A DNA stretch of 64,000 bases from Alligator mississippiensis (lineage: Eukaryota > Chordata > Crocodylia > Alligatoridae): the NCBI RefSeq assembly GCF_030867095.1, contig NC_081824.1:124132162-124196161 (forward strand), given 5' to 3'. The notes under the pieces were generated by a model. That model saw only the letters and a program-made list of their open reading frames with translations. It was not told where the DNA came from and made no database searches. A program made the translations under genes and the position numbers. Below, one piece after another: positions 42,001 to 58,629 of this stretch; the first letter of the stretch is position 1, and each line of letters starts with the position of its first letter.

Positions 42001-43267
42001 TTATTTGAATGCATGGTGAAAATGAGGCAATGTCACAGAATTTGTGCTGGATGGAAAAGAGCGAAGGACATGAGGAAGCTGATTGAGAGCTGCACCATCT
42101 GTAGCTATCTGAGGACCTTGTAGTTGTCCAAGGCAGCACCTATGTGATGGTTCCTCCTGACCAAATGCCACTGTAAGGTCCCCACTGGTATTCTGGTTAT
42201 CACTTGGAGGGAGTTGCCAGAAACCCAGTATATGAGTGAGATCCATGGAGGACATGTTCATTGTTTCAATGGTTGTCTCAGTCTCCTTGGGCAGTGTGTA
42301 CTTGCCAACATCACTGAGGGGCCCTGAGGAAGTCTCTAAATTGATTTTGTGAGGTGAATGAGGTTCTGGTAAAGGGAGATCTTCAAGCAGGTTTACACTA
42401 TAATTTTTAACATCTACTTTGCTGGGTAGATTCTTGAGGGGTACTGATGTGAATGAGGTAGAACTTGGTTCATATTTATTGGGCTGATGAAAGTTCTGGC
42501 TGGTAGGAATAGACGGTGGAGAGGGTGTGGAATGAACAGCTGACAGGGCATCTACACAGCCCATTCTTGGCATGTGAGGAGGACATTCAAGGGAATGTGT
42601 ACTTTGTAGGGCTTGTTGACAGTGAGTATGTGGACTGCTGTAGCCTGCTTCTGAACTGCTCAGAATCCCATGTTGTGTTGAAACCCTATCAGGAAAAGAG
42701 GGGAGTTCACTGTCTTCTTCCTTTAGTCTGAATGGGGAAAGAGGGTCAAAGAGACCCAGCAAATCACCATTCTGCAACCTGCTCTTCAGCAGCTCTTGTG
42801 GATGGGTCTTCTTGGTGTGGCGAGTCAAATGGTCCTTGCGCCCAAACCTCTGAGCACAAAACTGGCACAAGAAGTCCTTGCAGCCTGTGTGAACAACCAT
42901 GTGACGCCGCACATCTTTACGAGTGTAGAAACGGCGCTCACAGTGATCGCACTTATGTTTCTTTTCCTTGGTGCTGCTGGCTGGCTTCCCTGCATGAGTT
43001 TTGAGATGTTCCAACAATAGTTCAGTTCCTCCAAACTCTTGGGAGCACACCCTGCAGGTAAGATCCCCACTAGTGGCTGCATGAAGAGCCTGGTGTCGCT
43101 TGTAACCCAGCTTAGTATTGTATTTCTTTCCACACTCTTCACACCTGAAGGCCATTTTGTTGGGGTCATGAGTCTGAAGGTGATTGTTCAAATGGTCTTT
43201 TCTGTGAAAGGTCTTTTCACAGTAACCACATTGGTGAGATTTCTGTGGAGAGTGGGTGGCTGAGTGC
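42001..43267 (-). CDS. PLAGL1: PLAGL1 terminal coding exon: fingers 2-7 and C-terminal region
   Basis: Acceptor CTTAG|GCAC joins AG|G to restore Arg-His of finger 2. Fingers 3-7 are complete, including [40 protein letters not shown] and [20 protein letters not shown], nearly identical to mammalian PLAGL1. The downstream ~270 residues are Pro/Ser/His-rich, contain [18 protein letters not shown] and [15 protein letters not shown] and end LPHFHHAFK, matching the PLAGL1 (not PLAG1 or PLAGL2) C-terminus. Stop at 42001-42003. No defects. Confidence 0.97.
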
Positions 43268-58200: not shown

Positions 58201-58629
58201 AACAAAGCAAATCAGTCTCATGCTGTTAGTGTATATGGCATTCAAGTTCATGGTGGCATTCTGCCATCAATCTCTGCGTGGAAATTCATGGAAAGCCAAG
58301 CACCACCACCCCCCCCCCCCAATCAATAGCTGGGTTTCCAACCTTAATCATACTCATCCAAAAAGATAGGTTGTGTACAACTACCTGAAGCAAAGACCAC
58401 CTCTAAGCTACAAACCAATATTAATACTCTTGTCCCTCCTCAAGACTGTACCTATAAGAGCTAAAATACTTACTCTGTTGGTTCTCAGCTCGCAGCTCCA
58501 GCACTTGTAAAGTGAGGTAGTGAGGTAGGGTAAGGCGGGCACGGCTAGGAATAACCCTGTCTTTAACCCTGATGAGTGGTCCATGGAGTTTGCATTCTCC
58601 TATAAGGTTTTTGCCACAGTCCTCACACC
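42001..58629 (-). CDS. PLAGL1: PR/SET domain-containing PLAGL1 (ZAC1) locus, six coding exons, 5' incomplete
   Basis: Exons on the minus strand: 58629-58474, 57064-56952, 50255-50106, 46320-46195, 44127-43631, 43267-42001. All introns are GT-AG and phases join (1, 0, 0, 0, 2) into about 769 residues. Residues 1-180: a CxxC...CxxH knuckle ([17 protein letters not shown]), then a PR/SET domain with [35 protein letters not shown] and [13 protein letters not shown], closest in my memory to PRDM10/PRDM15/PRDM4. Then IKEESDIY (a possible SUMO site), an extra C2HC finger (CSSCSHVF...HQC), a basic linker, seven C2H2 fingers and a proline/serine-rich C-terminus ending LPHFHHAF, as in PLAGL1. Known PLAGL1 is a nuclear DNA-binding transcription factor. 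The leading exon(s), ending in one base of a probable Trp codon, were not found. That the PR exons are really spliced to the finger exons is inferred from phase. Confidence 0.82.
43631..44127 (-). CDS. PLAGL1: PR-PLAGL1 exon: extra C2HC finger, linker and PLAG fingers 1-2
   Basis: Acceptor TTGTTGCAG|AGAGAT, donor AAG|GTACAA. One open frame runs from [16 protein letters not shown] (an extra finger with C-C-H-C ligands) through a basic linker ([12 protein letters not shown]) into [20 protein letters not shown] (finger 1) and [19 protein letters not shown] (finger 2, first half). This exon physically joins PRDM-like linker and PLAGL1. Met at 43789-43791 (MKQPDSFHC) sits where mammalian PLAGL1 begins (MATFPCQLC in my memory) and could start a short isoform. 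Confidence 0.92.
44308..44655. mobile_element. DNA transposon family P3, copy 2 (PLAGL1 intron)
   Basis: Left AAGCCCTTGCCACACGTTAC and right end GGCAGGGGCCTT are inverted. Shares ATCAATTAATGGCGTGATAA, CAAAGTTATTCCA and GTGGCATGGCAG with 17950-18338. Confidence 0.7.
44770..45165. mobile_element. Palindromic element family P1, copy 2
   Basis: Core hairpin CTGCAGCAGGGTAGTATTTG / CAAGTACTACCCTGCTGCAG around a short loop, with flanks AATAAACTGAGGAGCAATAA and ATAGATGCATCC as in copy 1 at 14990. Confidence 0.72.
45332..45754. mobile_element. hAT-type element with internal CTGGATC-rich repeats
   Basis: Ends CAGTGGTGCTTAACC and GGTTGAGCATCACTC. Flanks ATCTATGC and TTCTATGA share TCTATG. Interior holds degenerate repeats of GGATC/GCACATGGGGCTAG type, shared with 46860-47100 and 57200-57460. 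Confidence 0.65.
46195..46320 (-). CDS. PLAGL1: PR-PLAGL1 exon: end of PR domain, VKEE motif
   Basis: Acceptor ATTTACAG|CC, donor ATA|GTAAGT. 42 codons: [20 protein letters not shown], then [22 protein letters not shown]. The [11 protein letters not shown] block closes PR domains of the PRDM10/15 type. VIKEE fits a SUMOylation consensus. Confidence 0.93.
46850..47283. mobile_element. Composite of degenerate hAT-related repeat and a family P6 end
   Basis: Tandem-like CATGCACCAGGGCC / GCACACTGATACTGGGGC words resemble the interior of 45332-45754. The right end TTATATGTGAGAAAACATGG is a family P6 terminus. Confidence 0.45.
47800..47975. mobile_element. Hairpin element family P5, copy 2
   Basis: TTAATTAGAGTGG...ATGAGCTTTAATTAAAGC, then GCCATTTTGAAGCACAGGGA and CACTGAATACACAAGAC, parallel to 26325-26505. 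Confidence 0.65.
48485..48675 (+). mobile_element. MIR SINE
   Basis: ACTCATCTTCACAGTGCTGC, GTTCAGATGAAAAGAGTAAAGC and CACACAGAACATCTGTGGCA follow the MIR order, including the CACAG core with AAGCTGGGAATAGA. Confidence 0.72.
49418..49975. mobile_element. hAT-type element with perfect 8-bp TSD
   Basis: Ends CAGTGGTTCTCAACTGG and GGTTGAGTACCACTG. Flanks GTGTATGT are identical (49410-49417 and 49976-49983). 558 bp, in the intron between the third and fourth visible PR-PLAGL1 exons. Confidence 0.9.
50106..50255 (-). CDS. PLAGL1: PR-PLAGL1 exon: PR domain core NWMMFVR
   Basis: Acceptor TCTTTAG|GT, donor AAG|GTAGCT. Exactly 50 codons: [50 protein letters not shown]. NWMxFVR.A....EQ.LVAY is the PR/SET signature; the usual EQN is EQT here. 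Confidence 0.95.
51051..51349. mobile_element. hAT-type element with near-perfect TSD
   Basis: Ends CAGTGATTCTCAACC and GATTGAGAACTATTG. Flanks CATTAACC (51043-51050) and CATTAATC (51350-51357) differ at one base. Lies in the PR-PLAGL1 intron. Confidence 0.87.
52182..52421 (+). CDS. CR1 ORF1 C-terminal fragment (esterase-like)
   Basis: Reads [40 protein letters not shown] and [20 protein letters not shown] before RALN-stop. CR1-clade ORF1 proteins carry a C-terminal SGNH hydrolase domain; D-x-x-H is visible in WDGLHLS. The first part of ORF1 is missing. Confidence 0.75.
   Translation: MVFSSILPVTGRGRRQENCIRETNWRLRQWCLEAGFGFLDHDPHITTRDMLSWDGLHLSPKGKRVFSSRLADLLRRALN
52478..55404 (+). CDS. CR1 ORF2 endonuclease-reverse transcriptase, one frame change
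   Basis: Endonuclease motifs [25 protein letters not shown] (first frame), then [12 protein letters not shown] and GDSDHL (second frame). RT motifs [36 protein letters not shown]-terminal [14 protein letters not shown] to [13 protein letters not shown]. The second frame alone is open for 832 codons (52906-55404). The switch lies in the G-run at 52823-52831, where one additional base would keep the frame; this could be a recent mutation, polymorphism or base-calling error. Confidence 0.93.
56580..56675. repeat. Inverted repeat, hairpin-forming
   Basis: GCATTAGCCTATTTTAATGC and TGCATTAAAATAGGCTAATG are reverse complements about 50 bases apart, flanked by GCACAT words; a small MITE-like hairpin. 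Confidence 0.8.
56952..57064 (-). CDS. PLAGL1: PR-PLAGL1 exon: PR domain strands with KRTQFGP
   Basis: Acceptor TTCACAG|TC, donor CAG|GTAACC. Completes the Ile codon and reads [20 protein letters not shown], then [17 protein letters not shown]. GVFxKxxIxKRTQFGP matches what I recall of PRDM10. Ends in phase 0. Confidence 0.9.
57195..57475. mobile_element. Degenerate hAT-related repeat
   Basis: CAGCCTTCAGGGCTCCCATGG, GTCTAGAAATTTGGTGG and the CTGGATC-like interior resemble 45332-45754. Termini not resolved. Confidence 0.45.
58305..58320. repeat. Poly-C run
   Basis: CACCACCACC followed by about eleven C. Simple sequence. Confidence 0.8.
58474..58629 (-). CDS. PLAGL1: PR-PLAGL1 exon 1 seen: zinc knuckle and start of PR domain
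   Basis: Acceptor GGCTTATAG|GG, donor CAGA|GTAAGT. Reads (W)[19 protein letters not shown], then [20 protein letters not shown], then [12 protein letters not shown]. CxxC...CxxHGP followed by SRARLxLP is the diagnostic entry to the PR domain in the PRDM4/10/15 group. Starts with two bases of a codon, so another coding exon must precede it. Confidence 0.9.

Follow-up and report, generated by a model that had tools for sequence, protein, structure and literature searches.

A PR/SET domain in alligator PLAGL1 suggests that the PLAG zinc finger genes descend from a PRDM gene

The zinc fingers of the PLAG proteins are expected to bind to PLAG-type GC-rich sites. To our knowledge, work on PLAG1, PLAGL1 (ZAC1) and PLAGL2 has treated them as oncogenes and imprinted growth regulators and has ascribed no PRDM history to them, and we know of no PR domain in ZNF683 (Hobit). 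Homology of ZNF683 to PRDM1 is stated in the abstract of PMC7662092, and this pair resembles the present case in that a PRDM relative goes under a ZNF name; it differs in belonging to another PRDM subfamily and lineage. Here we analyzed a 64-kb stretch of Alligator mississippiensis DNA, hereafter the window (G000:C1:124132162-124196161, part of the 2.35 Gb genome G000). The gene on its minus strand is, as judged from its sequence, the alligator PLAGL1. The best overall explanation of our data, to which we assign a probability of roughly 0.87, is that a PR domain is ancestral in PLAGL1, that the gene encodes a PRDM-type protein, that the PR domain was lost twice, and that it serves as a binding or activation module.

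Six exons of the gene, from 58629 to 42001 on the minus strand (Table 1), have AG/GT splice sites and compatible phases, and when joined they encode 768 amino acids without an internal stop. By string comparison these are exactly residues 8-775 of P0001, the Alligator mississippiensis PLAGL1 isoform X2. Residues 1-7 of P0001 (MSTDLLW) match a first coding exon outside the window: a search of the 64-kb window did not find the MSTDLL exon, and the sole match across 84 kb scanned lies approximately 36 kb past the window end, which places the coding start there. Two isoforms, from a bird (P0005) and a turtle (P0006), lack exactly the segment encoded by exon 46320-46195, and the exon limits are thus common to these species; in a further bird isoform (P0007) the missing part coincides exactly with exon 58629-58474. 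The preliminary description of this DNA had proposed four upstream exons with a zinc knuckle and a PR domain, in phase with the exon of the first PLAGL1 fingers, and the splice sites, phases and identity to P0001 all agree with that proposal.

Pfam identified a PR domain in the predicted protein (PRDM2_PR, PF21549, E = 3.9e-38, 130 bits, with the cut-off of the model at 27) together with SET (PF00856, E = 3e-8). The nearest solved structures by sequence in the PDB were PRDM10 (1.7e-26), PRDM4 (7.5e-24) and PRDM11 (1.3e-20). With the database model in agreement, the earlier claim that PLAGL1 carries an N-terminal PR/SET domain holds. N-terminal to the PR domain, residues 8-22 of P0001 have zinc-knuckle spacing (C-x2-C-x7-C-x2-H). 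The Cys/His pattern of the knuckle is kept in alignment A1; the Pfam model PF18445 was not reported in the alligator protein and scored below its cut-off in the invertebrate proteins P0019 and P0039. The PR domain is followed by a C2HC finger (C197, C200, H213, C215), invariant in 20/20 proteins of alignment A1, and then by C2H2 fingers that run in one frame through exons 44127-43631 and 43267-42001, both in the DNA and in the database model. Alignment A1, a motif scan and the finger tree described below identified these as the seven-finger PLAG array, with FGRKDHLxRH in finger 7, and the protein ends in a PLAG-type tail (LPxFHxAF, here LPHFHHAFK). From N- to C-terminus the predicted protein has a putative zinc knuckle, the PR/SET domain, the C2HC finger, the array of seven PLAG C2H2 fingers and the PLAG tail, a PRDM-type architecture.

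Such an architecture could be an artifact if the PR exons came from an independent PRDM gene upstream, or from the remains of one, and had been wrongly joined to PLAGL1 both in reading the sequence and by annotation software. Gene models are automatic, and a 2.6 kb LINE open frame lies between coding exons 3 and 4, both of which would fit that explanation. Exon 44127-43631, however, encodes PLAG fingers 1-2 in the same open frame as the finger behind the PR domain, so that the false joining of two unrelated neighbours is strongly disfavoured; PR domain and PLAG fingers also occur within one protein in several phyla, and no PR exon contains a stop in the frame used. We consider this explanation barely credible, in line with the preliminary description, which had doubted a separate PRDM gene; the database models likewise join the PR exons to PLAGL1.

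By sequence and tree, the PR domains closest to that of PLAGL1 are those of PRDM10, PRDM15 and PRDM4. PRDM10 itself is distinct: the FGRKDHLxRH finger-7 motif is missing from all nine PRDM10 rows scanned (P0037, P0041, P0043-P0047, P0050, P0055), and the C-termini differ. The combination of PR domain and PLAG fingers was instead found in PLAG-type proteins of many animals. A homologue search with residues 1-300 of the 768 returned 36 proteins, from turtles, birds, seven sharks, amphioxus, a hemichordate, echinoderms, a nemertean and molluscs. The birds form two clusters of 609 and 400 members, in which names are known for the representatives only. In precomputed Pfam results 35 of these relatives have the PR model, the exception being a turtle protein (P0020) that begins only where the PR part ends. 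By motif, 32/36 contain the PR core together with PLAG finger 7; the four that do not have this pair are P0016, which starts inside the motif, P0020, P0024, an isoform from a sea star, and P0031, a clam protein that has no fingers. An additional search yielded five crustacean rows with both motifs. Databases already use PRDM names for some of the invertebrate proteins: PRDM10 in Branchiostoma lanceolatum (P0018), PRDM4-like and PRDM10-like in Patiria, PRDM15-like in Lineus and PRDM9-like in Haliotis. In vertebrates, a PR-containing reptile row (Pelodiscus, P0004) is labelled PLAG1 in one source.

A broader set of 886 matches, 120 of which were listed, contained the PR model in at least 17: nine from reptiles or birds, six from sharks, one from amphioxus and one from lamprey. 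The lamprey protein (P0158, Petromyzon marinus) begins inside the PR part. No PLAGL1 of squamates, tuatara, frogs, teleosts or coelacanth was seen among the 120 listed, which does not imply absence from these groups. Turtles and birds carry the PR exons, and a lack of conservation in other reptiles, which the preliminary description had named as fatal to its proposal, is excluded. Over the PR region 131-133 of 142 residues are identical between the alligator and two turtles or ostrich, compared with 184/262, 185/260 and 175/266 (66-71%) in the C-terminal region; given this higher identity the PR part looks the more constrained of the two.

Mammalian PLAGL1 (ZAC1) is the same gene by the finger tree and probably by locus (LTV1, and the reading of a second neighbour as ZC2HC1B; see below), and its fingers and C-terminus are alike. 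It differs in the N-terminal half: in contrast to the alligator protein, the PR core motif was found in 0/30 mammalian rows, picked from the 120 matches listed of 886. In 26/30 of these rows the protein begins immediately ahead of finger 1; P0089, P0091 and P0136 begin further on, and P0083 has an unrelated-looking N-terminus. PLAG1 and PLAGL2 share the finger array with the alligator-type protein. Their tail, LPRFHQAFQ, is common to the PR-containing proteins of amphioxus, hemichordate, sea star and lamprey. They too differ in the PR domain, as the PR model occurs in 0/17 rows of their finger-tree clade, and 7/8 PLAG1 rows start with MATVIP, approximately 35-38 residues ahead of finger 1. Within the alligator genome, the best matches to PLAG1 (P0119) were C3:71258536-71260604, which we read as PLAG1, and C9:1455811-1457037, which we read as PLAGL2, the third being the window locus. 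A genome-wide Pfam search for PR domains gave 21 matching exons, one of them in the window (50255-50106). In this exon-by-exon search of limited sensitivity none of the 21 fell on C9, and the nearest on C3 was 9.7 Mb from PLAG1.

In a tree of 47 PR domains the 19 deuterostome PLAG PR domains held together (91/90). They lay inside a larger PRDM10/PRDM15/PLAG group (97/90), with PRDM4 outside it. Vertebrate and amphioxus PLAG PR domains grouped together (90/86). Membership of PLAGL1 in the PRDM family, as put forward in the preliminary description, agrees with this nesting and appears to extend wider than was proposed there: the trees suggest that the whole PLAG family, beyond PLAGL1, descends from a PRDM gene and would form an unrecognised branch of that family. 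In a second tree, of 45 finger regions, PR-containing shark proteins (mostly named PLAG1-like) joined PLAGL1 (96/86), and PLAG1 grouped with PLAGL2 (93/92). PR states were scored on this tree as 19 with and 22 without the domain, with partial PR domains counted as present and three salamanders and one shark left unscored, and the tree required two changes of state. A single loss in vertebrates, with all PR-less proteins in one clade, was rejected (p-AU = 0.0033). Because the lamprey, amphioxus, hemichordate and echinoderm rows have the PR domain, the two changes are read as losses, which we would place in the ancestor of PLAG1 and PLAGL2 and in mammalian PLAGL1.

Taken together, the trees and the domain distribution point to the following history. 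A bilaterian PRDM gene close to PRDM10 and PRDM15 would already have carried the PLAG fingers, and duplication in vertebrates would have produced PLAG1, PLAGL2 and PLAGL1. One loss of the PR part would then have preceded the split of PLAG1 from PLAGL2, and a second would have taken place in mammalian PLAGL1; crocodilian, turtle, bird and shark PLAGL1 would have retained it. The preliminary description had left the choice between an ancestral PR domain lost in mammals and a gain in this lineage; its first option is favoured by the PR-containing proteins of sharks, amphioxus, ambulacrarians and protostomes, and its second is disfavoured.

A number of observations weigh against parts of the overall explanation. 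In the free PR tree the six protostome PLAG-type rows (Lineus, Haliotis and four crustaceans) fell outside the group of 19, the outgroup was not one clean side, and both trees rest on a small number of columns (approximately 190-200). No LPxFHxAF tail is present in the molluscan rows. P0030-P0035, of which four are molluscan and two unnamed, carry approximately 230-390 extra residues within the PR domain, with an FGP-to-NWM distance of 275-433 residues compared with 42 in the alligator. The joining of the exons rests on DNA and mostly automatic database models. The silence of the PR search near PLAG1 and PLAGL2 is weak evidence, because the same search listed only 1/4 PR exons of the window gene. 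Finally, the active-site residues are mixed relative to PRDM9, as detailed below.

The failure of protostome and deuterostome PLAG PR domains to form one clade in the free tree would fit a gain of the PR domain by fusion of reptile PLAGL1 with a PRDM10-like gene, and independently in sharks and invertebrates. However, constraining all 25 PLAG PR domains to one clade was not rejected (p-AU = 0.136), a result that permits a single clade and no more. The same knuckle pattern, PR domain, C2HC finger, PLAG fingers and tail occur across the deuterostomes of alignment A1, whose 19 PR domains group together, as do those of vertebrates and amphioxus, and repeated identical fusions would be required. 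We consider such gains very unlikely. A fusion confined to reptiles is ruled out by the presence of PR domain and PLAG fingers in sharks, amphioxus, echinoderms and protostomes.

Under the ancestral reading, the PLAG fingers would bring the protein to GC-rich target promoters, where the PR module would act as a binding or activation surface for chromatin partners, as reported for PRDM10, more than as a strong histone methyltransferase. According to sections of PMC7368010, the fingers of PRDM10 alone did not activate a reporter, and activity was seen with either the PR-containing N-terminus or the C-terminus. A different function would be that of an active histone lysine methyltransferase like PRDM9, writing a mark at PLAG target sites. 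Five residues of the PRDM9 lysine channel (276, 293, 341, 357 and 361) and their roles are given in portions of PMC12122940. In favour of enzymatic activity, Tyr276, Tyr357 and Tyr361 are kept in the alligator and in 9/10 other vertebrate rows, the exception being Pelodiscus with Phe at 276. On the other hand, Tyr341 is replaced by Phe and Trp293 by Leu in 11/11 vertebrate rows, the alligator included; among the invertebrates, the amphioxus row and seven ambulacrarian rows have Phe at position 276, the six protostome rows have Leu there, and 3/4 crustacean rows have Phe at position 357. As the channel residues are partly changed, a binding or activation module is expected more than a strong enzyme, and a PRDM9-like methyltransferase seems unlikely.

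Salamanders provided possible remnants of the PR-containing form. A newt protein (P0066) aligns with the alligator from the last PR residues onward and a second (P0068) from the C2HC finger onward (0/2000 shuffles as good in each case); for axolotl (P0065) the alignment covers the linker only and is weaker (6/2000). The PR exons of salamanders may have been lost or merely missed by annotation. The models of both newts and of lamprey P0158 start within or after the PR domain, and upstream PR exons are possibly just unannotated in these species. A great white shark (Carcharodon carcharias) protein, P0096, belongs to the PLAGL1 clade of the finger tree, is PR-less and starts with MATCLPVPVLEMNDSQ; the start of PLAG1 is MATVIPGDLLEVTDTQ. 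Between the two N-termini 7-8 of 20 residues are identical, three of them being the MAT start, and with MAT fixed 0/20000 shuffles were as good, in a test chosen after the resemblance had been noticed and with six PLAG1 targets that are near copies of each other. That the P0096 N-terminus is a mere shark linker is disfavoured, as PLAG1 gives the better match. Compared with the linkers of three PR-containing shark proteins, only 1 to 3 of 19 residues are identical and 1053/20000 shuffles were as good, and the PLAG1 reading is preferred for this reason. If the likeness is correct, it suggests that a short PR-less start predates the vertebrate paralogues. We tentatively extend this to a model, which we hold at slightly below even odds, in which PLAG is a PRDM subfamily whose ancestor made long PR-containing and short PR-less proteins from two starts; PLAG1, PLAGL2 and mammalian PLAGL1 would be relics in which the PR-less form alone became fixed. 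Scans of the window and of the adjoining 80 kb for a short first exon like that of PLAG1 gave no convincing hit, with best scores of 13.8 and 13.0.

The alligator sequence itself is not new, since P0001 is already in databases as PLAGL1 with PR domains listed. Among the papers listed we found none calling PLAG genes PRDM genes in titles and abstract openings, a search that did not cover the large PRDM survey of Vervoort and others (2016), and none on the name plagx. The word PLAG is absent from the main text of four PRDM papers (PMC7662092, PMC2082429, PMC13113268, PMC10451705). The placement of PLAG among the PRDM genes is likely to be novel but is unproven as such, because the 2016 survey may have counted such genes. 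If a PR-domain gene was the ancestor of the PLAG genes, the half that these now lack could be studied directly, together with its partners, in birds, turtles, crocodilians or sharks. PR-less forms of PRDM2, PRDM3 and PRDM16 are often overexpressed in cancer, according to part of PMC2082429, and if our reading is true this pattern could be asked of a second oncogene family, PLAG. It would also follow that the mammalian protein is no safe stand-in for PLAGL1 of chick and reptiles.

Table 1. Positions of the PLAGL1 coding exons and of other features in and near the window (window coordinates unless a contig is given).
Feature	Position	Strand	Residues of P0001	Content	Basis
Coding exon 1 (MSTDLL)	G000:C1:124232183 (window coordinate 100022)	-		ATGTCCACAGACCTTCTAT then donor GTAAGT	
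Coding exon 2	58474..58629	-	7-58	putative zinc knuckle and N-flank of PR domain; phases 1/1	splice sites, phase
Coding exon 3	56952..57064	-	59-96	PR domain block	splice sites, Pfam, P0001 identity
Coding exon 4	50106..50255	-	97-146	PR domain core, NWMMFVR	splice sites, P0001 identity
Coding exon 5	46195..46320	-	147-188	PR domain end and acidic tail	splice sites, P0001 identity
Coding exon 6	43631..44127	-	189-354	post-PR C2HC finger, linker, PLAG fingers 1-2	single open frame
Coding exon 7	42001..43267	-	354-775	PLAG fingers 3-7, C-terminal region ending LPHFHHAFK, stop codon	
CpG-rich stretch	approx. G000:C1:124257661-124258410			possible promoter	
LTV1 piece	2577-2788	+			E 3.3e-28 to LTV1 in PDB
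Open frame read as ZC2HC1B	23423-23728	+		C2HC finger	Pfam zf-C2HC_2 2.1e-5, 24.5 bits, below cut-off of 27
LINE-type frame	52792-55404	+		endonuclease/reverse transcriptase, 870 aa	RVT_1 1.1e-31
Second LINE-type frame	7799-10624	-		941 aa	RVT_1 3.4e-33
Third LINE-type frame	29265-30947	-			ORF (open reading frame) list only

Outside the window, the CpG-rich stretch lies 25 kb further upstream of exon 1. Within it, the LTV1 piece and the open frame read as ZC2HC1B stand in the order that we take to be that of the human PLAGL1 neighbours. The first LINE-type frame is situated in the intron that separates coding exon 3 from exon 4, and the third is similar to the other two.

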